Source of the DNA: a virus
IMG/VR virus record: IMGVR_UViG_3300048588_000891
Span: 1 to 64,000 of that record
Length of the DNA stretch: 64,000 nt
Strand: one strand, 5' to 3'
Of the stretch, positions 211 to 26,730 are shown piece after piece; the first letter of the stretch is position 1; the number at the start of each line of letters is the position of its first letter. The position numbers and the translations under genes were made by a program. The notes under the pieces were generated by a model. The model searched no databases. It was not told the DNA's origin and worked only from the letters and a program-made list of their open reading frames with translations.

Positions 211-969
211 ATGGCTGATACCGCAAATCCAATTGTGACAAAACTCGTATCCGTAGCGCGGCGCCTAAAGGCCATTGCAGTTGTCGATGGCCCGGAGGAT
301 GAAAAGGAGCTGAAAAAATTCAGAAGCCTTAATGGCAACGCCCGCCTTTATATCGTCTCGCCGAAGGTCAAGGTCGCGGCTGACGACAAAACAATTTCCG
401 CTCCTGCGAGTTCGTATGTGGCTGGCGTATTTTCAAGAATCAACTTCTGGCAGTCGCCATCGAACCAGCCGCTGTATGGAATTCTTGGAACGAGCGTGGG
501 GATCTCCTTTGAGATGGATGATCCCGAGTCCACGGCCCAGCAGTATAACGCCATGCAAATTGCGACTCTTATCCGCGAGGATGGGGGCTTCAGGGTATGG
601 GGAGCAAAGGGTACAGGAAGTCCATCGGACTCCAAAACGAGTCAGATTCAAAAGGTCCGCATCGCCGATGCCATCGAAGAGGCCATCGCCGCCTCAACCC
701 GCTGGGCGGTGGCCGCAGGCATTAATCGCGACTTCATAGGAGCGGTTGAAAGAAAGGTGAACAACTTTTTTTCAGATCTGATTCGTGAGGGTGCCATTGT
801 CGGCGGCGAATGCAAGGGCGATACGGAACGCAACACGGCCGATGCTCTGGCCCGTGGCGATGTCTACTGGAAGTACAGCTTCACGCCAACCGCCGTGGCC
901 GAGACGCTTCACTTTGAAGGATTTAACACCAATAAATACTACGAAAATTTTGGAGAAGGAGCCCAATGA
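211..969 (+). CDS. Contractile tail sheath protein, C-terminal part (P2 FI-like)
   Basis: The 252-residue product matches the C-terminal two thirds of P2-type sheath proteins. It has a VVDGP strand near residue 26, an APASSYVAGVFSR segment, a WQSPSNQPLYGILGTS block, a RVWGAKG block and a DVYWKYSFTPTAVAE C-terminal sheath fold. ATG 211 is in the same frame as the upstream fragment, separated only by TGA and GCC. A GGGGGA stretch about 9 nt upstream could serve as a ribosome site. The stop overlaps the next start as ATGA. A complete P2-like sheath is about 390 residues, so neither piece is full length on its own. Confidence 0.85.
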   Translation: MADTANPIVTKLVSVARRLKAIAVVDGPEDEKELKKFRSLNGNARLYIVSPKVKVAADDKTISAPASSYVAGVFSRINFWQSPSNQPLYGILGTSVGISFEMDDPESTAQQYNAMQIATLIREDGGFRVWGAKGTGSPSDSKTSQIQKVRIADAIEEAIAASTRWAVAAGINRDFIGAVERKVNNFFSDLIREGAIVGGECKGDTERNTADALARGDVYWKYSFTPTAVAETLHFEGFNTNKYYENFGEGAQ

Positions 970-2171
970 ATTCATTTCGTCTGATTTTATTCGCAGCCAT
1001 TTTATGTTTAGGCTTTGCCGCCTTCGCCCAGCAAACAGCGCCGCTTTTTTCCGATAATGAAAGTCCCACGTTTGAAAGCACCTATCTTATCGACAACATC
1101 GGCACCAACAGCAAGGGCGGGGACCTCACGCTCAGGATCCACAAAACAGCCCCATTCGGTGAGTGCAAGGACAGGGTGAACTGCCCTCCGTCGGTGATTG
1201 TGTCCGGGGCCACAGGAAATGTGAACATGCCTGTCGATGTGAATGTCCGCTCACTTCATGTCGGCAAAATTCCCGTGATTGATGCCACTGGAAAATGGGT
1301 GGGGCCTTCCACGGGACTTATCGGTCCCAAGGGTGACAAAGGCGATCCCGGCATCCCGGGCCCAAAAGGGGATAAGGGTGATGCGGGGCCCGAGGGGCCG
1401 CGTGGTGAGCGCGGCTTTGATGGTGCCATGGGACCGGCCGGCCCCAAAGGTGACAAGGGTGATCCCGGAACTCCAGGCGAAAAAGGTGAAGCAGGATCTC
1501 CCGGGCCGCGAGGTGAGCGTGGCGAGCGTGGTCCGGAAGGTGCCACGGGACCGGCAGGTGCCAAGGGCGACAAGGGTGATCCTGGAAGGCCGGGTGAAGG
1601 CTGCTGGTATAACGATCAACTGCAAAGGATCAACTGCGGGGAGACCTGGATTGAGATCGCAAATCTCAAAGGTCCGAAAGGTGATTCCGGATCTGCAGGA
1701 CCCAAGGGTGACAGAGGCGACAGGGGGGACAAGGGCGACAAGGGTGATCGGGGAATTCCAGGTGAAGGCTGCTGGTATGACGACCAGGCGCAAAGGATCA
1801 ATTGTGCGGGAGGCACCTGGATTCCGATCACACTTTTAAAAGGACCGCAGGGTGAAAGAGGACCCATGGGGCTTACAGGACCAAAAGGCAATACAGGTCC
1901 CATGGGTCCTCAGGGGCCAAAAGGAACCGTTGGCAGCTGCAGAAGCGTTTCAGCTGAGGTTTCCATTTTTCAGATGACAGAGGTTTCCGCTTCCTGCGAC
2001 AGCGGCGAAATTCTCATAGGTGGCGGCTGCCATATTACCGGCGGAATCGGTGTGCAGCTTCAGACGTCGGCTCCCATTATTGAAGAGCTTACCTACGCTT
2101 GTGAATGGATCTGGAAATCGGGAGTCAGTCCTCTGGTCAAGGGTACTGCCGTTGCCACCTGCTGCAAATGA
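966..2171 (+). CDS. Exported collagen-like protein inserted among tail genes
   Basis: The 401-residue product begins with a clear signal peptide (LILFAAILCLGFAAFAQQ). It then has a roughly 95-residue N-domain and three Gly-X-Y tracts at about residues 120-210, 236-267 and 293-322, rich in GPKGDKGD units. The tracts are separated by two near-identical inserts of about 25 residues starting GEGCWY. A cysteine-containing C-domain follows. Collagen-like repeats are common in phage fibres, but a Sec signal is not expected for a virion protein. It may be a cargo gene acting on the host surface. ATG overlaps the sheath stop by 4 nt, so it is translationally coupled. Confidence 0.8.
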   Translation: MNSFRLILFAAILCLGFAAFAQQTAPLFSDNESPTFESTYLIDNIGTNSKGGDLTLRIHKTAPFGECKDRVNCPPSVIVSGATGNVNMPVDVNVRSLHVGKIPVIDATGKWVGPSTGLIGPKGDKGDPGIPGPKGDKGDAGPEGPRGERGFDGAMGPAGPKGDKGDPGTPGEKGEAGSPGPRGERGERGPEGATGPAGAKGDKGDPGRPGEGCWYNDQLQRINCGETWIEIANLKGPKGDSGSAGPKGDRGDRGDKGDKGDRGIPGEGCWYDDQAQRINCAGGTWIPITLLKGPQGERGPMGLTGPKGNTGPMGPQGPKGTVGSCRSVSAEVSIFQMTEVSASCDSGEILIGGGCHITGGIGVQLQTSAPIIEELTYACEWIWKSGVSPLVKGTAVATCCK

Positions 2172-8557: not shown

Positions 8558-9019
8558 TCAGACCCCCAGTTCGCCGCGAATCTCAGCCCAGTATTTCTCG
8601 ATGACAATGTACTGCTTCGGGAGCGGTCGACGCTCCAGCTCCTCATGCCCCCGATAGCCCGCCGATCGCGCGGCACTGAGAAAGCTCGCGAAGGCAGAAG
8701 GCAGTGCGTTTTCCCTCCCATCCTGCGCCCACCTCATCTGAACCTTCAACTGGTATTGAGCCCGCAAAACCTTGTGGAGAAGACGAAGCCGCTTAGGGTT
8801 GACCTTGGCTTTTAGAAGGTATTGTTCATCGCTTGGGTCATGCTTTACGCGCAAAAATTCGGCGTATCTCTCGCAGAGCTTGCGGACCCCAGTATTCGGC
8901 GTCTTCGCCCGTTTTGAAACATCACGAAACGTGAGAGGTTCGGTGCCCAGCTTCTCGCTGAGCAGCCACAGGGCAGGCGGACGCCCGTAACCGCCTCGGT
9001 GGTGCTGGATTGTTTTCAC
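8558..9019 (-). CDS. Small basic protein with possible helix-turn-helix, maintenance operon
   Basis: The 153-residue product is not recognised. Residues about 30-60 (FRDVSKRAKTPNTGVRKLC) look like a helix-turn-helix, followed by many Arg/Lys residues, so nucleic-acid binding is plausible. It lies 13 nt after the pentapeptide-repeat gene on the same strand and is probably the third gene of the parA operon. It could be an accessory partition or copy-control factor. Confidence 0.55.
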   Translation of the reverse strand: MKTIQHHRGGYGRPPALWLLSEKLGTEPLTFRDVSKRAKTPNTGVRKLCERYAEFLRVKHDPSDEQYLLKAKVNPKRLRLLHKVLRAQYQLKVQMRWAQDGRENALPSAFASFLSAARSAGYRGHEELERRPLPKQYIVIEKYWAEIRGELGV

Positions 9020-9032
9020 TTAATCGCTCCGC

Positions 9033-10328
9033 CTATGGGATCAAATATGTGTTTCTTCGAGCAGTCCTCCCTTTCTGCTTTTGAAATAACCCTTTAGCTA
9101 GCAAATTGTTGACTAGACGAACTGTGTTGGATGCGTCACTTCCAATAGACTTGGCAATCTCAGCTAGACTCAATTTAGATCCCGCCTCCCAATCCTTATG
9201 GAGGTCTATGAGCACTGTCAGTAGAACCTTCATTTCATTCGCAGACAAGTCGGCCTGGACTGCTTTTTGTAGGATTTCAACGGCCTTCTGATGAAGGATT
9301 CGGACTTTCCGAATGTTCTTTCTATCAATTGGGCTACTTAATGCTGTGCTGTCTTCGCTGATATTATCGTCGTCGACAGCATCATCTATGACAGCATTTG
9401 ATCGAACACTGTGCTCTAAAACAGTCTCTTTGCTGACAGTGTTCTGGTTAACACTGTCTTGAGTAAGAGTGTTTAGGAAAACAGTGTTTGATTTGAAAGT
9501 ATCATCACGAACAGTGTCGTCTTTGATGCTATTTTCACTGATGGTGTTCTGCCCAACACTGTTATCGACGATGGCGTTTGCCAGCATAGCATCATGTGGG
9601 ATGTTATTCGTCAGAACAGTATTATCAGGAACACTGTTCTGGACAATATTATCCTTATCAATAGTATCCTGAGTAATGCTGTAGGCAGCAACATTATTCG
9701 CATTAATGCTATTTGCTGAAACAGTGTTGTCCAGAACAGTATTGTAGGAGATAGGTTTGTTTTGAATGTTGTCATCAATAATACTGTCGTCAAGAACACT
9801 GTTATGCAAAACAGTGTTCTGATCAATAATATTACCATCGCCCGGATGGTAGGCACTCAGAACATTATTGCCAGGAACAGTATTATGCCGAACAGTATCA
9901 TCCGTGACGATATCGGCTCCGGCATTGAACCTGTTTATCGCAATGCTGTTCTCTTCAACAGTGTTCTGTACGATAGTGTTGGAGTCTACACTGCTGTCCC
10001 CCTCTTGAGGTTGTGAATCGACCTCTTTGGAATGGAAGACAGAAACAGTGTTCGCTTGAATGTTGTCGACCGGTACAGTGTTCTGGGCGATACTGTTTGA
10101 TAGGATAGGGTCGCTATCCTCTAAATTATTGGAATATTTTACATTTGTGTGATCCGCTGAGGCTCCAATGCGCTCTTCCATAACAGCATGGCCAGCGGAT
10201 TTTCCACTTTTGCTTTTCGCCTTTTTCTCAGCGAGTTCTCTTCGTTTGGCCTCTCGCTCGGCCTTTTGAGCTGCCAGCTGTTCCATTTTTTCTTTGTGAC
10301 TAATCCCAGCTTTTTCTCGACTAGACAT
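9033..10328 (-). CDS. ParA-associated pentapeptide-repeat protein with C-terminal winged helix
   Basis: The 431-residue product has three parts. An N-terminal charged helix (about 12-45) is rich in KAERE/KRRELAEKK. Residues about 77-323 are a repeat region, with 32 uninterrupted five-residue units (164-323) of pattern x-x-(N/D)-(T/S/N/A)-(V/I). Residues about 330-431 look like a winged helix (LSLAEIAKSIGSDASNTVR). The repeats do not fit the classical A(D/N)LXX pentapeptide. ATG 10328 is preceded by AGGAGG 9 nt upstream and overlaps the parA stop by 8 nt, so it stands where a ParB-type adaptor would. No ParB family match is visible. Confidence 0.8.
   Translation of the reverse strand: MSSREKAGISHKEKMEQLAAQKAEREAKRRELAEKKAKSKSGKSAGHAVMEERIGASADHTNVKYSNNLEDSDPILSNSIAQNTVPVDNIQANTVSVFHSKEVDSQPQEGDSSVDSNTIVQNTVEENSIAINRFNAGADIVTDDTVRHNTVPGNNVLSAYHPGDGNIIDQNTVLHNSVLDDSIIDDNIQNKPISYNTVLDNTVSANSINANNVAAYSITQDTIDKDNIVQNSVPDNTVLTNNIPHDAMLANAIVDNSVGQNTISENSIKDDTVRDDTFKSNTVFLNTLTQDSVNQNTVSKETVLEHSVRSNAVIDDAVDDDNISEDSTALSSPIDRKNIRKVRILHQKAVEILQKAVQADLSANEMKVLLTVLIDLHKDWEAGSKLSLAEIAKSIGSDASNTVRLVNNLLAKGLFQKQKGRTARRNTYLIP
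9360..10115. repeat. Intragenic array of 15-bp near-palindromic repeats
   Basis: Inside the pentapeptide-repeat gene the sequence AACA(C/G)TGTT or a close variant recurs at 15-bp spacing, in phase with the reading frame. About nine copies are perfect nine-mers. Many others differ by one base. Thr-Val and Ser-Val pairs are almost always written ACT-GTT or AGT-GTT although other codons were available. The motif reads the same on both strands apart from its central base, as a dimeric DNA-binding site would. Confidence 0.75.
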
Positions 10329-11406
10329 GAGCCTCAACCTCCTGGGTTGACCGCTTTGCTTGTCTAAAGGATTTAATTTGTTCAGCCCAGGAACCTAGAT
10401 CAGCCATCGACCAGACCAAGTCTTCAATTCCCCCAACCGCAGGGCGAGCCTTTGCAGATTTCCAGACATTACTCTCACTATCAAAGGCATTCTCGAATGG
10501 CTTACAACTTGGGATGATCACGTCGGAAACATCTTCACCATATTGCTCTTTCAGTTTTGCAATTCGCTCATAGCTAGATGTGCTGCGCCCATCAACCTTG
10601 TTGGATACCAAAAGGATCTTAGGCTTGACCTTATATTGGCTATCGACAAACTTGATGTGGTCGGTCGTCAGCTTTAACCCTTTGAAACTGAACTTGTGAA
10701 TGTTGACGGGGATGATGCACTGATCTATATAGCAATGAACGGCCATACTCACGCTGTTAAAGTCACATGGTAAGTCGAATAGAATAAAGTCGTAGTCTGC
10801 CTCTATCTTTTCGAGAAGATTTTTGAAGAGATATCCTATGTTGACTTTGCTTTCGTTGACCCTGAAATCCAAATTCGCCAAACCAATGTCAGCCGGGATC
10901 AGGTGCAGGTAGTCGGTCAACTCACAAATGGCGACACTCGGATCATAACGCTTGGGGCGCGCGAGATACTCCTCGAACAAGTCCTTAAGAGTGATAACCC
11001 CTTCCTGCTCATCATCGATCCCAAAAGAGTTTGTAAGGTTGGCCTGTTTATCAACATCAATAAGAAGAACCTTAAACCCATACGCAGAAAGCTTTGCAGC
11101 CACAGTATGAATGATCGACGTCTTGCCAACGCCTCCTTTCACCGAATGTGAGGCTTTTTTGCCCTTTTTCCTTTTTACTGGCCAGTTGCGAAATCTCAGG
11201 ATCTCGTTGAGAGCCTTGGGATAGATAATAACCGTATCCTTACCTTTTGTAGCAACTTCGATGTCTCCCTCTTTTATGATGCTATGTACCGCTTGAACTG
11301 AGATGCCCAGCAGGTCAGAAACCTCTTTAATCGTAAGGAATAGGTCAACAACCTCGGAATTGTATGCAATCTGAGGTGGAGTCCACCAAGACTCTTTTGT
11401 GCTCAT
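10321..11406 (-). CDS. parA: Partition ATPase ParA with N-terminal HTH
   Basis: The 361-residue product has a deviant Walker A box (KGGVGKTS, K90-S97), a LLIDVDKQANLT motif at about 114-125 and a Walker B FILFDLPCDF. A MerR-like helix-turn-helix (IKEVSDLLGISVQAVHS) lies at about 26-43. This is the layout of type Ia partition ATPases, which also repress their own operon. ATG 11406 is chosen because the frame upstream of it runs through an AT-rich promoter region. The gene precedes the repeat protein in one operon and lies just downstream of the iteron array. Confidence 0.88.
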   Translation of the reverse strand: MSTKESWWTPPQIAYNSEVVDLFLTIKEVSDLLGISVQAVHSIIKEGDIEVATKGKDTVIIYPKALNEILRFRNWPVKRKKGKKASHSVKGGVGKTSIIHTVAAKLSAYGFKVLLIDVDKQANLTNSFGIDDEQEGVITLKDLFEEYLARPKRYDPSVAICELTDYLHLIPADIGLANLDFRVNESKVNIGYLFKNLLEKIEADYDFILFDLPCDFNSVSMAVHCYIDQCIIPVNIHKFSFKGLKLTTDHIKFVDSQYKVKPKILLVSNKVDGRSTSSYERIAKLKEQYGEDVSDVIIPSCKPFENAFDSESNVWKSAKARPAVGGIEDLVWSMADLGSWAEQIKSFRQAKRSTQEVEAHV

Positions 11407-11484
11407 TTTACACCCAGCTTTAAAAGTTTTGATATTTTCTATGAATTTTATCAAGTAGCCGTCGCGATAATAAAGCATGAAGCA

Positions 11485-11571: not shown

Positions 11572-11721
11572 GTTAGTGTTCTCTACGACAGTATTAGCAG
11601 CACCAGTGTTACCCGCACCAGTGTCGCCCGCACCAGTGTCGCCCGCACCAGTGTTACCCGCACCAGTGTTACCCGCACCAGTGTTACCCGCACCAGTGTT
11701 ACCCGCACCAGTATTGAAAAT
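11572..11721. repeat. Non-coding array of ten 15-bp iterons (candidate centromere or origin)
   Basis: Ten 15-bp units run in phase. Seven (starting 11602, 11617, 11632, 11647, 11662, 11677 and 11692) follow ACCAGTGTTACCCGC or differ at one or two bases, with GTGTC replacing GTGTT in two. Units at 11572, 11587 and 11707 are degenerate. The core (C)CAGTGTT differs by about one base from AACAGTGTT in the intragenic array and has the same 15-bp period. The array lies upstream of parA and 175 bp before the rep-like gene, so it could be a centromere, a replication origin, or both. Confidence 0.85.
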
Positions 11722-11895: not shown

Positions 11896-13581
11896 ATGGC
11901 CGCTTTTGCTGAAGTGCTTGAATGGAAACCTGGCCGCCGAAATCGCGAACGTCCTGAAACACCGGGCGGGAACATTGCTCGCGGGCATCATATCTATGGA
12001 TACTGGACATATAATGACGACGGCTCCAAGGATCAGGCATTCCCGCTGGGAATGAACCATAAGGTTTTCCCGAGCCAAGAGAAGCTGATTAGCACGGCTG
12101 TATGGAATCCAGGAAAGAAGACTTGGACCCTGCTTTTCATGCAGTTCGATCTCGACTTCAAGAATGCGAATCCAAAATGGATTCTTGACGGAAAAATTTC
12201 CTGGCCATTGGTACAGGAGCATTTGCGGGTACACGAGCCGAAATTTTTTGAAGCGATTGTGTATGCTGTCATGTCCACGGGAGGCTGCGGGCTGTCAATC
12301 GTCCTTTCGATTGCACCGTTTGTGCTTTGTGACGAGAATAGAACGATCGAATCCCGCGCGTCGCATCTGCAAACCATGCTCATAAAAATGCTCAATCATC
12401 ATGGCTTGGGGGCTGACTACAGCGCGGCGGGCCTTAAGCGGTTCATGCCAAATTTTAAGAACCCAAGGCGGCTGATTTATGAGAACGCCATCCGACGCAA
12501 ATGGGTCGAGAATACCCGGCATTTTGTTGTCCGCGAGCTGTACCTGGCTTATCGGGATCACATTGCCTGCATCTATATCCGCAAAACGGAGCGATTGGAA
12601 TCCTTTCTGCACCCTGACTTTCGGGTCGAAAAGAAGCTGGCTAAGCTCTACTTCCAGCTGGACTGTGTCATAGCTCCCGGAGGCATCCGGAATTGCTCTT
12701 TGAAAGAGATTTGCGAGCTTACAGGCATGTCGCCATCCTCATTCTATCGTTCCGTGCTTGCGCGGGCCGACGTTCTCAAATGGCTTGAAATCAAACCGCT
12801 CGGGGGCCGCAAGGGATATGATCTGAAGTTCCTGGGCAACCCGCATTATGATGCCCGGGTCCAGGAAATCCTATTTGGGTCCGCGAAGCCGGACCATCGC
12901 GAGACAGTTTCCAGGCCGCAGGTCGACTCCGAACCCGCCGACGTCGTAGACGGCGAGCGCAACACTTTCCTCTGGCAGTCAGCAGTAAAAATGAAACACG
13001 CCCTCATCCCCGAGGAGACGGCGCTGGCTGCGCTTCGGATCATCGCCAGCGGCGTGCCAGGGTACGGAGGAAGAGACAGCTGGTCTCTGCGTAATCCCGA
13101 GCGAATCTGCCGCTCTATCTATAAGTGCCGCCCGCGTGAGGGCAACAGCCCTGTTCTCCGGCAGCTGCCAGGGTATCTATATATTGCCGTGAAACAGGCA
13201 GAAAAGCGGGCAAACCAAGCCAAAAAAGCTTATGCGAAAAATTTAGATGTTGGAACCCTATTGGGTTCCACATTGTTCGCAGCAGTACCAAGCAGCCCGG
13301 AGCGGGAGGTCTCTCGGTTTTCCTCCCAGGCTTTCCCTTCCCACACCCCGGCGGGTGTCAGGCCGGGGGGTACGGGGGCGGGCCAGGCCCCCGGTCAGGT
13401 GGTTGATACCCAACTGCATTCCACCCAGGTGGTTGATACAGAACAGCCTGAAATTTACCCAGCAGCGGACCGCGCGATTTTTGAACCGGCGCCACAGATT
13501 GCTAGGCTGGTAACCGGTGGAATGCCGACGACCGGCTCCGTGCAGTCCCCAGTCGGTCATGCAGCGGAGGACAAAAACTAA
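11896..13581 (+). CDS. Putative plasmid replication initiator (Rep)
   Basis: The 561-residue product is not firmly recognised. Its position beside iterons and parA suggests a replication initiator. Residues 81-88 (FMQFDLDF) resemble the hhDhD motif I of archaeo-eukaryotic primases, with D85 and D87. A winged-helix-like segment (CSLKEICELTGMSPSSFYRSV) lies at about 258-280. The C-terminal 100 residues are low-complexity and include a repeated QVVDT motif. GGAG lies 8 nt upstream of ATG 11896. Another DNA-binding role is possible. Confidence 0.6.
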   Translation: MAAFAEVLEWKPGRRNRERPETPGGNIARGHHIYGYWTYNDDGSKDQAFPLGMNHKVFPSQEKLISTAVWNPGKKTWTLLFMQFDLDFKNANPKWILDGKISWPLVQEHLRVHEPKFFEAIVYAVMSTGGCGLSIVLSIAPFVLCDENRTIESRASHLQTMLIKMLNHHGLGADYSAAGLKRFMPNFKNPRRLIYENAIRRKWVENTRHFVVRELYLAYRDHIACIYIRKTERLESFLHPDFRVEKKLAKLYFQLDCVIAPGGIRNCSLKEICELTGMSPSSFYRSVLARADVLKWLEIKPLGGRKGYDLKFLGNPHYDARVQEILFGSAKPDHRETVSRPQVDSEPADVVDGERNTFLWQSAVKMKHALIPEETALAALRIIASGVPGYGGRDSWSLRNPERICRSIYKCRPREGNSPVLRQLPGYLYIAVKQAEKRANQAKKAYAKNLDVGTLLGSTLFAAVPSSPEREVSRFSSQAFPSHTPAGVRPGGTGAGQAPGQVVDTQLHSTQVVDTEQPEIYPAADRAIFEPAPQIARLVTGGMPTTGSVQSPVGHAAEDKN

Positions 13582-17936: not shown

Positions 17937-19235
17937 TCAGAGATGTGGGGCAGGTTTTTCTTTTTCAAGATTAATGGCTCTTATGACAAACCATCCAGAT
18001 TCAGTCATATTGATAAATCGCTTCGTGTTATTGTCTTCATCTTGTACTACATCCACTAATCCAGCTTGAGTGAGCTGTCTAAGTGGCTCAATAAGAGCCT
18101 GTGTGGTAGGATAGCCGAGATCTTCGTATCGGCTCCTCGCGACGTTTCCGCCAGCATCGGCAATCTTAGCTAAAAGATTTTTCCCAGCATTTGTGATTGT
18201 TCGTTCCGCCGCAATCAGTTTTTTCGAACATTCTTCGTCAAGCCAGGACGAGAAAGCCTTGTCCCGGTCAGACCGAGCCTTTTCGTCAAATTCAAGAAAT
18301 TGATCGCAAAAGGTATCAGAGTAAGACAATGTTCGTCTTACATTTGACGAGAAAGTATTATAAAGATCAACGAATGACCTTGAGGATATTGGAATTTTTT
18401 CGTCACAATTTTTATCAACTGCAAAAGTTGTGATGCGCGATTCATATAGCTCTCTAGGGTCGATGTTAGCATCCTTTTCACCAATTTCTATTGGAAGAGC
18501 AAGGAAGTCAGCCAATGATCCTGCACTCGCCATTCCTCGAACAACTCCAAGAGATCCACATAGCACCCATTTTACTCCATTCATTACCAGCAGCTCATCA
18601 CGAAGTGCATTGAAAACTTTCTTCGCATTCGACGATGTTTCGAGAATTTCAAGATTATCAATCACACAGACCACTTTTCCTTTTCTCTCGTGGAAGGACG
18701 AAAGCCACGACGTAACGAGATTTGGAAATCCAACTGTCTCGAACTGCCCTCCGGTTGGTGCTCTTCCCCCACCTGCGTTCATACCAAAAGCAGGTACATT
18801 GAATCCAACACTGACCTGCTTCAAATAAGGTTCGTTGAGCCATGTGTCTATATCTTGCTGCTTAAACAGTTCACCATCCAATACCCCCCTATATTTTAGG
18901 AGCGAGTTTGCAATCTGGAGATAGACGGCCATTTTGAACGAATCAACAGTGGCATCGTTGTTAAGCTCAAATCTTTTAACACAGGGAATAATCGGGGCAG
19001 ACTTGTTGGCTAGGAAATTTGTATAAGCTCTAAACGTGGCAACATTCACAAGACTCGTTTTGCCGGTCCCTTTAGGACCCTCGACAGTTATGACTTTTTC
19101 CTCGTTCAGGCGGCGAAGAAACGTCGCCAGTTCTTTTCCTCTACCGACGAAAAGTTGCGATCCAATTTCATTGCCCTCCAGTGCGAACACGCTGAATGGA
19201 TTGCCTTTAAATCCCCACTGCTCGTACTTAGTCAT
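17937..19235 (-). CDS. AAA/STAND-like ATPase with C-terminal winged helix
   Basis: The 432-residue product has an N-terminal WGFKGNPFSVFAL entry, a Walker A box GPKGTGKTSL at about residue 54, a Walker B VVCVIDNLEIL near 195 and a sensor-like WVLCGSLGVVRG. The last 90 residues form a winged-helix-like segment (GYPTTQALIEPLRQLTQAGL). This is the layout of ORC/STAND-type ATPases. In an accessory island next to a restriction nuclease, a defence sensor is plausible but unproven. Confidence 0.65.
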   Translation of the reverse strand: MTKYEQWGFKGNPFSVFALEGNEIGSQLFVGRGKELATFLRRLNEEKVITVEGPKGTGKTSLVNVATFRAYTNFLANKSAPIIPCVKRFELNNDATVDSFKMAVYLQIANSLLKYRGVLDGELFKQQDIDTWLNEPYLKQVSVGFNVPAFGMNAGGGRAPTGGQFETVGFPNLVTSWLSSFHERKGKVVCVIDNLEILETSSNAKKVFNALRDELLVMNGVKWVLCGSLGVVRGMASAGSLADFLALPIEIGEKDANIDPRELYESRITTFAVDKNCDEKIPISSRSFVDLYNTFSSNVRRTLSYSDTFCDQFLEFDEKARSDRDKAFSSWLDEECSKKLIAAERTITNAGKNLLAKIADAGGNVARSRYEDLGYPTTQALIEPLRQLTQAGLVDVVQDEDNNTKRFINMTESGWFVIRAINLEKEKPAPHL

Positions 19236-19468: not shown

Positions 19469-20680
19469 TTAACCAGTGCAGGTGTTAGGGAGATTAGGAA
19501 ATCCATCGAGTTCGGCATCAATTTTATTTAAATAATCTTTAACATTTCCTGAATTCAATGAACTCAAGAAGGCATCAAGCGCATTTTGCAAGTCAACTAA
19601 ACGGGATATATCAATATCCACCTGCTTCGATCGTTCAAAAATGCCAGACAGTTCGATTTCGGAAAAAAATGTTTCGCGTTCCCAGAATTCAATCTTCAGA
19701 CGACTGCAGGCATCCTTTGCTTTCTTAGTCAAGTATGATGTTGTTATAAGCATGCAATTGGTTGCCGAATACATAGACGCGCCACCTTTGAGTTTCATAA
19801 CGTCTTCACTGCCAACAGTATAATTTTCGTTGTATCGTTTACACTGAATGGCAATCGCTGAGACACCCAATTGACTTGCGATAAGATCCACTCCAAAATC
19901 GCCCGTCTGCGGTGTTTTTTTTACTGAGAATCCTTTGCGCTTGAAAATTTCGGCTACCAAATCCTCGAATTGAATCCCTGTCATCGAATCAATTTTGTCT
20001 TTAGACGAAATTAAGCTCTTCTGAATGGTTTGGCACTCATAGATTTTTATTTGCATCTTTTCTTTTACTTTACGGATGTGATCAAGATGTGGATACAATT
20101 TTTTCACAGCATTACAAAAATCGTCGCTGGTATTTATAGATTCCAAGAAATCGCGCGGATATTTCTTCCCTTCCAAAAAATTATCAACTATAGCTGATAT
20201 AGGTTCAACCCTGTCAACCCAGTTTTCAAGGCGCGAGATAGTGCCCTCGCCCTCGAGATTTTTCATCATTGATTCGTGAACTGCAGAATAGACTCGTTCT
20301 TCTTTTTTATTTTTTCCCCTCATACCCAGCGCGCCCGATCCGAGTTTAGTCTCTTCTGCGGCTTGATAAGGTGAAGAGAACTCTTTTCTCATAGCCTCAG
20401 CAAAGATGCGTTCAAAATCTTTTGGCGAAATTTTTGATTTTGCCAAATCAAGAAGTTTCTCTCTTTCTAAGAGTGATTTTTTTCTGCTAAATTCAATATA
20501 AAGAATCGAGGCCAAAACCCCAAATACACAGGCCAAGAATGGATTTATCTCGATAGAAAATACCGCGGACAATAACCAGCTAATGAGCAAAGCTACTGGC
20601 ACTGTGACCACGCTATAAAAAAGCACTAGAAAAATATATAATAATATTACAACCAAAGTCTCTTCAGTTGGATTTGACAA
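19469..20680 (-). CDS. Membrane-anchored Mrr-type restriction endonuclease
   Basis: The 403-residue product begins with two transmembrane segments (about 8-35 and 45-62), followed by a helical linker. The C-terminal Mrr_cat domain (about 232-340) has GIQFEDLVAEIFKRKGF, GDFGVDLIA, AIAIQCKRY and CMLITTSYLT blocks, with D/QxK catalytic residues in GVDLIA and QCKRY. Mrr-type enzymes cut foreign or modified DNA. Membrane anchoring hints at action on incoming DNA or as an abortive effector. Dispersed repeats flank the gene on both sides. Confidence 0.8.
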   Translation of the reverse strand: MSNPTEETLVVILLYIFLVLFYSVVTVPVALLISWLLSAVFSIEINPFLACVFGVLASILYIEFSRKKSLLEREKLLDLAKSKISPKDFERIFAEAMRKEFSSPYQAAEETKLGSGALGMRGKNKKEERVYSAVHESMMKNLEGEGTISRLENWVDRVEPISAIVDNFLEGKKYPRDFLESINTSDDFCNAVKKLYPHLDHIRKVKEKMQIKIYECQTIQKSLISSKDKIDSMTGIQFEDLVAEIFKRKGFSVKKTPQTGDFGVDLIASQLGVSAIAIQCKRYNENYTVGSEDVMKLKGGASMYSATNCMLITTSYLTKKAKDACSRLKIEFWERETFFSEIELSGIFERSKQVDIDISRLVDLQNALDAFLSSLNSGNVKDYLNKIDAELDGFPNLPNTCTG

Positions 20681-24435: not shown

Positions 24436-24543
24436 GTGATCCGTGACACGCATCACTGCTCTACTGACAGATTTCTACTGTTTTTCAAGGCTGAAGTGGA
24501 TTGGTCTGCTTCGCATCGGGCGGAGCTTTGTCTGGAGTGTTCT

Positions 24544-26730
24544 GTGAGTGCAGCAACGGAGTTATTCGCAACGAGCACAGTTCGTCGACTGCGGGAGCAA
24601 TCCTATTCTCTGCAGCGCGATGGTCATTTCTGGGTGACGTCCTGGAAGATGGTGGCTGCGTTGGGTCAACGTGAGCTTCTTGTACTTGGCTATCTTGGTT
24701 CGGCTGACCCAGCCGACCATCCTTCCCGTGCGGAATTGGGAACGAACCTGGGGATCCAGGGAAAACGAACTCAGAAGATTCTGGATGATCTACATGCGCG
24801 GCGAATCCTGTTCCGCGACTTTGTCGCCTATGGACGCCGGGACAAATCGCTTTGGCATCTTTCTCATCCAGGCTGGTGGCAGGGATGCAGCGGCTTTACC
24901 CCGGATGCCTCGACCACCGACCCCGCTTCCTATCAATCGCTGCAGTTCATGCGCGATCGGGATAGAAAGCGTATCAATCAACTTCGATCCTTCATTCTCG
25001 CGCAGGACGATACCGTGCGCGTGCCAAATCTCCTTTTCAGAATGCCGGTCAGCTGGCGGGCAAAGTACCTCTATATTCGTCTGCTCTTTCTTGGGGAGAA
25101 CATACAGCCTACCGTTGATGAGCTGGCGGCTCTGGTGGGCTGGGACTGGCGGACGGTGCGCTCGGCGATGAATGAACTGTCCGACCACCAAATGATCGCA
25201 ATTCAGACGGCTGACACCCGGGTCTTCACAGGCTGGAAACGTCACTATTTGCACCTAACGGACTGCTACGACTGGAGGCATGATCAGGCAAAGATGCAGT
25301 TCTCCGCGCCCAAAGTTTCCCGGGTTCGATCCCTTGATCTTTCTCCATCCGAGCCGCGGTGGCGAGCGATCAAAAAGCAGATGTTTACGCCGCACCGCGC
25401 CGACGCGGGCAGCTACACCGTGTCATTCCAATTTGATGGACAGCACTATAGTGCGCCTTTTTTTTGTGACAACGGGAACTACGAAACTGCATTCGGGAAC
25501 TGCGAGGCTGCAAAAGGGAACTGCGAAGCTGCAGAACTTTCCCTGATGAACCCGGTGCAGGCCCCGGCCCGCAAGGGCTCGGGGACCTATAAGAAAGCAT
25601 ATCAAGATAGCCCGCAAGAATGCATTCGCGTGCGCGCGTGCGTGGATGACAGTAATGCCGGTATTTCAAAAGCCCGGGCCATTTCGATCGCGGAAGGAGC
25701 GAGGGACGTCTGGGTCTGGGAAAGCTTTAAATGCGACCGTGCTCTCTGGACCGACGAGGTGCAGACGTTTGCGAACACATACGGCGAGGCTGATGCCAGG
25801 CGGCTGGTGGCTTATGCCAACGAAGTTCTTCTGGCAAGAGGCCGCCGCCGACTTGCGTACAATGTCACGTCGATTGGAATGTTGATTGCCGGATTTCTCG
25901 ATCAAATCCCGGCATCCGAATTCGGCAAAGACAGGGCCGCTTACGCGGCAAATCCGGCTCTTGAATGCGAAGTTTTGGCGCATACCTCCCATTCAAGCGC
26001 AACTGCCTTCATAACCGCCGCTGACGGAACACTGCCTCTGCCATCAACCGGGATGGAATCAGCGGAACCTGGGCCGGTTTCTGCGGCGATGGAGGCTCAA
26101 CCTGAATCGGTCGACCTCCCTGTGGCGCCCGATCGGGATCCGCTCGCAAACCTGCCGGCGGATGAAGATCGCCTGCGCTGGGTCGTGGGCCGCATGCTGC
26201 CAAAACTCGGCAAAAGCCAGAAGGCTGACCTGCGGGATCTCTGGCAGAAGCACGGACCACGCGGTGCTGTCCTAAGGTTCGCCGGCAAGTCGGACGAAAA
26301 TTGCCTGGCTGTCATGGGGGCATCGAACGAGCTCTCGAAAGTAGGGATCTTGAGAAGCGCGGACATCCCGCGGCTGCCCTGGGAAAATCCAAAACCTGCC
26401 GAGGGCGATTCTCAAACCATGGCCACAGACTGCGCGCCCGCACAGGAAAACTCCGCGGCCTCGAGTACGGACAGCCATTCGACTCTTCTGAGCGATTTCC
26501 GCGCATGCCAGGAGCGGAGGCTTGCCGGCGAAAAAGCCTCCGAGGGCACGCCCATCACCCGGGCTCGTCTCAATAATGCGTTCGCTGTACTCGCCCGCGA
26601 CATGAAATTCAGCGCTCGCACCAGGATGCTGATGGAACTTGGGAAGCTGAACGACGCCGATCTGTGGTCACGCCTTGCGGAAACTTTCACCGAACCGATG
26701 CTTTTGGAGGTGCTCCGTGACATCCCCTGA
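24544..26730 (+). CDS. Large winged-helix protein, putative replication factor
   Basis: The product is about 728 residues from GTG 24544, which has GGAG 6 nt upstream; a GTG at 24436 gives a longer form without a ribosome site. Two winged-helix segments are visible: ELLVLGYLGS to TQKILDDLHARRIL, and AKYLYIRLLFLG to LAALVGWDWRTVRSAMNEL. The middle carries three 21-nt tandem repeats (25474-25536) encoding GNCEAAK-type units. The C-terminal half is low in motifs. It heads a rightward operon with a helicase, so a replication role is inference. Confidence 0.55.
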   Translation: MSAATELFATSTVRRLREQSYSLQRDGHFWVTSWKMVAALGQRELLVLGYLGSADPADHPSRAELGTNLGIQGKRTQKILDDLHARRILFRDFVAYGRRDKSLWHLSHPGWWQGCSGFTPDASTTDPASYQSLQFMRDRDRKRINQLRSFILAQDDTVRVPNLLFRMPVSWRAKYLYIRLLFLGENIQPTVDELAALVGWDWRTVRSAMNELSDHQMIAIQTADTRVFTGWKRHYLHLTDCYDWRHDQAKMQFSAPKVSRVRSLDLSPSEPRWRAIKKQMFTPHRADAGSYTVSFQFDGQHYSAPFFCDNGNYETAFGNCEAAKGNCEAAELSLMNPVQAPARKGSGTYKKAYQDSPQECIRVRACVDDSNAGISKARAISIAEGARDVWVWESFKCDRALWTDEVQTFANTYGEADARRLVAYANEVLLARGRRRLAYNVTSIGMLIAGFLDQIPASEFGKDRAAYAANPALECEVLAHTSHSSATAFITAADGTLPLPSTGMESAEPGPVSAAMEAQPESVDLPVAPDRDPLANLPADEDRLRWVVGRMLPKLGKSQKADLRDLWQKHGPRGAVLRFAGKSDENCLAVMGASNELSKVGILRSADIPRLPWENPKPAEGDSQTMATDCAPAQENSAASSTDSHSTLLSDFRACQERRLAGEKASEGTPITRARLNNAFAVLARDMKFSARTRMLMELGKLNDADLWSRLAETFTEPMLLEVLRDIP
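25474..25536 (+). repeat. Three 21-bp tandem repeats in coding sequence
   Basis: Units start at 25474, 25495 and 25516 and share GGGAACT(A/G)CGA(A/G)(A/G)CTGCA. They encode GNYETAF, GNCEAAK and GNCEAAE. They look like recent slippage expansion within a linker. Confidence 0.7.

Follow-up and report, generated by a model that had tools for sequence, protein, structure and literature searches.

We examined the first 64,000 nucleotides of the IMG/VR virus record IMGVR_UViG_3300048588_000891 (the window), and in particular a gene for a ParA ATPase (parA) and the gene directly after it, which we call the partner gene. An array of short sites with a 15-bp period runs through the coding sequence of the partner gene, and another array lies upstream of parA. 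By computational comparison with related loci, we show that these arrays are constrained as DNA, that each locus has a private motif, that the copies of this motif within the gene and outside it change together, and that the encoded peptide is not conserved. Our preferred explanation, to which we assign a probability of roughly 60%, is that the locus is a type I (ParA ATPase) partition cassette with a winged-helix partner that is not ParB, and that the centromere is the array of short sites in the partner gene together with the copy upstream of parA.

Arrays inside the partner gene and upstream of parA

The core of the intragenic array is a nine-mer, AACA(C/G)TGTT, whose two forms are AACACTGTT and AACAGTGTT. 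As the initial annotation had stated, the nine-mer is palindromic except for its central base, and it encodes NTV or NSV. AACASTGTT occurs 8 times in the window, and all 8 copies are at 9480-10052, within the partner gene. By chance, 0.33 copies would be expected, and none of 100 shuffles reached 8. If the first base is ignored, there are 22 matches (ACASTGTT) in the full 67.6-kb record, and all but one of them are inside the partner gene. Between residues 78 and 323, we counted 41 core triads: 10 are NTV, 4 are NSI, 4 are DNI, 3 are NSV, and the rest are others. These triads are in a five-residue register and the commonest gap is 5 residues, but there are interruptions, and the units are often degenerate (for example, AATATTATC or GACAACATT). 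In other words, the initial annotation was right about the period and about the register with a five-residue protein repeat, but the array is degenerate and interrupted rather than an exact 15-bp ladder. Information is restricted to the nine core positions, while the six-base spacers are near random (the tabulated columns are offset by one codon). Because the spacers carry almost no information, recent tandem duplication fails to explain the pattern in the window.

Codon choice within the cores is skewed as well. Threonine at core positions is encoded by ACT in 17 of 18 cases, compared to 10 of 58 in four neighboring genes (P = 3e-9). In the same comparison, valine is encoded by GTT in 18/24 versus 29/104 cases (P = 3e-5), and serine is encoded by AGT in 8/12 versus 12/105 cases (P = 6e-5), with the caveat that serine AGT may in part derive from threonine ACT by a single change. 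The cores show no bias relative to the neighboring genes in the choice of AAC or AAT for asparagine, or of ATT or ATC for isoleucine. Considering threonine-valine and serine-valine pairs together, ACT-GTT or AGT-GTT accounts for 16 of 22 pairs in the partner gene and just 5 of 66 in 20 other genes, so the preference that the initial annotation had described is real. We also permuted the synonymous codons within the gene, which keeps the protein fixed. The permuted genes would have 2.8 ± 1.35 copies of AACASTGTT, instead of the 8 observed (P = 0.0015), and 8.3 ± 2.7 copies of ACASTGTT, instead of 21 (P = 0.0005). The motifs for this test were chosen after inspection, except for the motif that the initial annotation had already proposed for the window.

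The array upstream of parA went unmentioned in the initial annotation. Tandem Repeats Finder reports 8.3 copies with 93% match at 11589-11712, between parA and a divergent gene that begins at 11896. The two arrays have the 15-bp period and AACACTG/CAGTGTT in common, with 5 copies of AACACTG upstream of parA and 12 in the partner gene, and they share more recurrent 7-mers than expected from a codon-shuffled null (P = 0.012). Read on the minus strand, the intergenic array would encode NTGAG repeats in the frame of a long parA open reading frame (ORF). We treat it as non-coding because the part of ParA that is supported by Pfam starts downstream of the array.

Table 1. Features of the parA-partner locus in the window
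Feature	Position	Strand	Description
Partner (adaptor-like) gene	9036..10328	-	431 aa; stop at 9033-9035, ATG at 10328; lysine-rich N-terminus, repeat region, C-terminal winged helix
parA	10321..11409	-	Walker-A ParA ATPase with N-terminal helix-turn-helix
N-terminal HTH_17 of ParA	11197..11340	-	Family match
Intragenic degenerate 15-bp array	9360..10097	-	Core AACA(C/G)TGTT, about 41 units, residues 78-323
Exact AACASTGTT site	9480..9488	-	Further sites at 9555, 9630, 9720, 9795, 9810, 9957, 10044
Winged-helix domain	9036..9242	-	Predicted DNA-binding; residues 363-431
Intergenic 15-bp array upstream of parA	11574..11718	not assigned	Unit CAGTGTTACCCGCAC; about 8 regular units plus degenerate end units
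Gene downstream of partner	8558..9019	-	153 aa; no family match

Private motifs in related loci

We gathered relatives of the ParA protein from plasmids, GTDB contigs, viral contigs, and whole genomes, which required profile searches. The named records are from Bdellovibrio, Piscirickettsia, Cysteiniphilum, Legionella israelensis, Cardinium, and Bandiella, and phages are represented as well. The relatives keep the gene order parA-partner, and ParA is always adjoining. In this family, a ParA with an N-terminal helix-turn-helix (HTH) is followed by a partner whose short, basic N-terminus leads into a repeat region and then a winged helix, after which there is often a C-terminal domain.

The peptide repeats of different members are unlike each other (ANAIAE/NADTS, QQTYNKPTS, NNQEHISEQYGN, SETNSKPLVNDKETIGKQ, PKLSQSEAKVE, DNKKIT, DSKLVANYEQTSSET, and others), so conservation does not extend to the pentapeptide. 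The initial annotation had asked if homologues would keep the pentapeptide and vary its codons; what we found is homologues that lack the pentapeptide, each with its own DNA motif and the peptide that this motif encodes. Most of the partner genes have a private DNA motif at intervals of 10-15 bp, and in about ten loci, the motif crosses several reading frames. For example, a Piscirickettsia locus (L032) has GGAAC every 10-12 bp in two frames, with spacings of 11, 12, 10, and 12 bp, and a Bdellovibrio locus (L030) has a CTACNNC core every 11-12 bp in three frames.

To quantify this, we counted pairs of 8-mer repeats that lie in different codon frames, which a protein repeat cannot produce. The observed counts were far above the codon-shuffled null for L030 (281 versus 32), L175 (234 versus 14), L181 (458 versus 65), L206 (198 versus 29), L207 (395 versus 25), L209 (234 versus 29), L032 (100 versus 40), L281 (92 versus 16), and L282 (207 versus 36). 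Exact 8-mer pairs in differing frames are also far above codon-permuted nulls in L035, L036, and L179. Two loci have few intragenic copies (out-of-frame P = 0.12 for L033; in-frame P = 0.4 for Legionella). Neither this test nor the test for recurrent 7-mers uses a preselected motif. Tandem duplication inflates the same-frame counts in L032, L035, and L283, and it could add to the out-of-frame counts, so we base our argument on frame, location, and private motifs taken together.

As to location, the gene and the region upstream of parA have a motif in common in the window, L113, L114, L032, L033, L181, and L279. In a gammaproteobacterial metagenome-assembled genome (L037) and in Cardinium (L280), the array is upstream of parA only, and the partner gene has no repeats. 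Conversely, by comparing recurrent 7-mers, we found no shared array upstream of parA in L030, L035, L036, L175, L206, or L207. The phage relatives L113 and L114 (38% identical) are informative because both of their arrays have a 15-bp period and have jointly switched to a core of the AGC-N4-GCT type; the recurrent upstream 7-mers are common to the gene and the upstream array in both (P = 0.002 and 0.03). Between L113 and L114, DNA identity is 84% for parA, 79% for the winged helix, and 61% for the repeat region, and yet the 15-bp arrays are kept inside and outside the gene. In L033, AGGTAACA is found in more than one frame of the gene and also upstream, the two regions share 444 7-mers (165 expected), and there is a 22-bp exact inverted match between them.

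Each motif is almost confined to its own locus: a table of motifs by loci is nearly diagonal. Even the co-resident plasmids pBdHAGR2 and pBdHAGR4 of Bdellovibrio HAGR004 have differing motifs, which is what compatible centromeres or origins in the same cell would require. Because the frame, the location, and the encoded peptide of the array vary among the relatives, the comparison indicates that the array acts in cis as a DNA site and can be placed inside or outside the gene, and that the repeats are maintained for their DNA sequence, with the protein repeat largely a by-product. The initial annotation's proposal that selection acts on DNA as well as protein thus draws support from the codon tests, from the non-coding array with the same core, and, most strongly, from the relatives whose repeats do not follow the codon register or are not in the gene at all.

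Partition and its alternatives

Partition is the likeliest function for these loci, and a replication origin is the main rival. As in type I partition loci, the window has a Walker-A ATPase of the ParA/MinD type (PF13614, E = 5.6e-31; PF12728, E = 4.4e-6; phrog_164 ParA, E = 2.2e-36; KGGVGKT motif), an adjoining gene for a predicted DNA-binding partner (the two genes overlap by 8 bases), and a centromere-like repeat array. There is no ParB domain among the partner's Pfam, PHROG, or NCBIfam matches, so it does not look like a canonical ParB (CTPase) adaptor. An AlphaFold2 model of the partner's C-terminus is a winged helix (predicted local distance difference test score 85.6). Among the matches listed by a fold search, the best PDB entry is RbkR (Z = 11.2), and the winged helices of MarR, CRP, and LexA score about 10, so the predicted fold is nearest to these sequence-specific DNA binders. 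This similarity is to winged helices generically: no partition or initiator family is prominent among the matches listed.

In our model, the cognate centromere would be a series of short sites, about one per helical turn or one every 15 bp. The winged helix would bind the repeated core, and many bound copies would assemble into a nucleoprotein complex, both on the gene itself and in the region upstream of parA. Such a complex may repress the operon as well. ParA would then engage this complex and move it over the nucleoid, as expected from its family. Since the site and its binding protein would be a single stretch of DNA, they would be inherited and exchanged together. For the family, we lean slightly towards a broader proposal: that this is a widespread ParA partition family in which a private iteron array, changing fast and threaded through the binder's coding sequence (often in multiple frames), serves as the centromere; that a tolerant linker takes whatever peptide the site encodes; that binder and site travel as one gene; and that the array can relocate to the promoter region of parA and be lost from the gene. 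Where a member has the C-terminal domain, the array could be a combined site for partition and replication.

Several observations weigh against a partition cassette. The partners' winged helices are nearer to the domains of phage initiators and helicase loaders than to ParB. Several plasmids with the locus have no recognized replication gene (PMC6963756; the Legionella plasmid), an observation that an origin would explain at least as well. One relative (L208) has neither an intragenic array nor an obvious upstream array. Also, local duplication could create repeats without any function.

The array might instead be a replication origin, with the winged-helix protein as the initiator, the repeats as iterons within its own gene, as in phage lambda O, and ParA as an accessory. 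We consider this unlikely but well worth keeping in view. Replication-initiation PHROGs, including O-like and DnaD-like ones, match the relatives' winged helices weakly. Origins are known within gene O of lambda (PMC5043065) and within repC (PMC3155836), we found a phage O gene with in-gene 15-bp repeats encoding KDTIT (L023; PF04492, E = 5e-24), and neither a replication protein nor iterons were found for the Piscirickettsia plasmids pPSLF89-2 and pPSLF89-3 (PMC6963756). What favors partition is that the partners in the window, L113, L114, L037, and L208 end with the winged helix, without the C-terminal domain that an initiator would need; that the window has a separate initiator-like gene (24436-26730) with 21-bp repeats of its own; that a Toprim primase-helicase is beside the locus in L114; that the linkage to ParA is strict; and that the array is sometimes upstream of parA only.

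Could the arrays be mainly operators, with the partner as the repressor of its own operon and the repeats serving for autoregulation only? Arrays that lie in the promoter region of parA, as they do in the window, L113/L114, L032, L033, L037, L279, and L280, would be suitably placed, but an operator has no need of tens of sites across about 740 bp within a gene, and the loci with no shared array seen upstream of parA (L030, L035/L036, L175, L206, and L207) do not fit either, so we regard autoregulation alone as improbable. We give still less credence, indeed very little, to selection for the protein repeat itself (as a repeat fold or a flexible spacer), with the DNA pattern following from codon bias and local duplication. 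In the window and in Bandiella, the repeat is in frame and the peptide is regular, and lactococcal HTH proteins have KDNTV repeats in different codons (AACACCGTC). However, the relatives keep neither the peptide nor the frame, the excess under codon permutation persists with the protein fixed, a non-coding copy of the motif lies upstream of parA, and the window partner's Pfam matches include no pentapeptide-repeat family.

Other repeat loci and known systems

Some of our searches led to candidates that we set aside. Scanning viral contigs for close relatives gave only a chance match (L008) with the window protein and nothing with the window ParA alone. A scan for three RAYASTRTT units in a 15-bp register found mostly unrelated low-complexity tandem repeats, along with genes of the lambda O type, and no relative of the locus. 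Matches in an Alteromonas phage tail protein and in Leptospira were due to low complexity. Matches from Lactococcus, Enterococcus, and Carnobacterium, which we treat as analogues, are HTH proteins whose KDNTV repeats are exact, recent tandem copies; none has an adjoining ParA. In the rep_cluster_342 plasmids of Lactococcus and Carnobacterium (L004, L005, L006), an HTH protein has many exact 15-bp repeats that encode KD(D/N)TV; in L004 and L005, this gene is downstream of repB, and the annotated pentapeptide gene on the opposite strand is probably spurious. A chromosomal HTH-ParA-like subfamily from Bdellovibrionota (L183-L197) scored with the profile and was set aside because its partner is different: a conserved small protein with a motif like VHLEFYGSELIRQKAPKVMELADTVADEW and without a winged helix or repeats. 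As for methods, k-mer sharing was too noisy if single-copy k-mers were included (except for L033), and restricting the comparison to k-mers that recur upstream was more informative. Counting GC-N4-GC in L113/L114 was uninformative under codon permutation because Ala-x-Ala fixes the count.

We also noticed other repeats and genes. Three viral contigs (L014, L023, and L026) have genes with three 15-bp repeats, AAAAGACACTATTAC, which encode KDTIT; those of L023 follow the PF04492 domain and are likely the iterons of a lambda-type origin within the gene. An otherwise unrelated viral contig (L016, 753-836) has six AACACTGTT sites with 15-bp spacing (AACACTGTTTATAAT). The gene that holds the repeats in the Piscirickettsia plasmids L031, L032, and L282 is annotated as hypothetical; iterons were reported to be absent from these plasmids, and replication proteins from two LF-89 plasmids (PMC6963756). 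In the window, a 21-bp sequence is repeated three times in tandem (25471-25533) inside the ORF at 24436-26730 (+), which matches a DnaD-like helicase loader (phrog_186, 9e-6; weakly Phage_rep_org_N). These repeats, a second intragenic array, are probably the origin from which the phage itself replicates, placed within its initiator gene. The gene divergent from parA (11896-13581, +) encodes a 561-aa protein that may be a replication protein; it has no Pfam, PHROG, or NCBIfam matches. Possible phage defense genes are an Mrr-type restriction endonuclease with N-terminal membrane segments (19469-20680, -) and a nearby AAA/STAND-like ATPase (17937-19235). Between tail genes, at 966-2171 (+), there is a protein with collagen-like Gly-X-Y repeats.

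Among known systems, SCP2 of Streptomyces coelicolor has a ParA and a non-canonical partner, ParT, with the site (parS) inside the partner's gene, as established by chromatin immunoprecipitation sequencing and binding assays (PMC12260392). That site is one 18-bp inverted repeat and ParT is a ParB-like clamp, while in the window, the short sites form a long array and the partner is a winged-helix protein without a ParB match. In lambda O and Phage_rep_O genes, the binder's gene holds its own repeated binding sites, which encode the stretch between domains (PMC5043065; L023), as we predict for the window, but lambda O initiates replication without a ParA, and the window partner has no PF04492 among its Pfam matches; of 12 domains from relatives, 3 match this family, and only weakly (best E = 0.044). 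In repABC loci, ParA is linked to a gene whose coding sequence holds a cis site: oriV is within repC, as demonstrated with silent mutations (PMC3155836), and in Rhodobacterales, parS is at varied positions that are sometimes in coding sequence (PMC9040568). Those loci have three genes, a ParB-type RepB, a palindromic 16-bp parS, and an A+T-rich origin without iterons; in the window, the partner and the downstream gene match neither ParB-type RepB nor RepC. RedRock-type mycobacteriophages are extrachromosomal prophages with direct-repeat arrays near their parAB genes (8 copies of an 8-bp motif; PMC7157519), but these repeats are described as beside the par genes and not through the partner's coding sequence, and the partner is ParB. 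Finally, the N-terminal helix-turn-helix in ParA is shared with type Ia systems (P1 and F), whose partner is ParB, unlike the window's. In the literature, we found no account of a par family in which the partner gene itself carries the centromere array along its coding sequence, although our coverage was incomplete and this is weak evidence of novelty.

If our explanation is correct, then across a broad set of phages and plasmids, the sequence of a protein region is set by a DNA site and not by the protein's function. Centromeres or iterons would have been overlooked in these elements because they are annotated as coding; a published search of the Piscirickettsia plasmids, for example, turned up no iterons (PMC6963756). 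Incompatibility groups would be predictable from the sequence of the gene, and the binder and its site would evolve as one unit.
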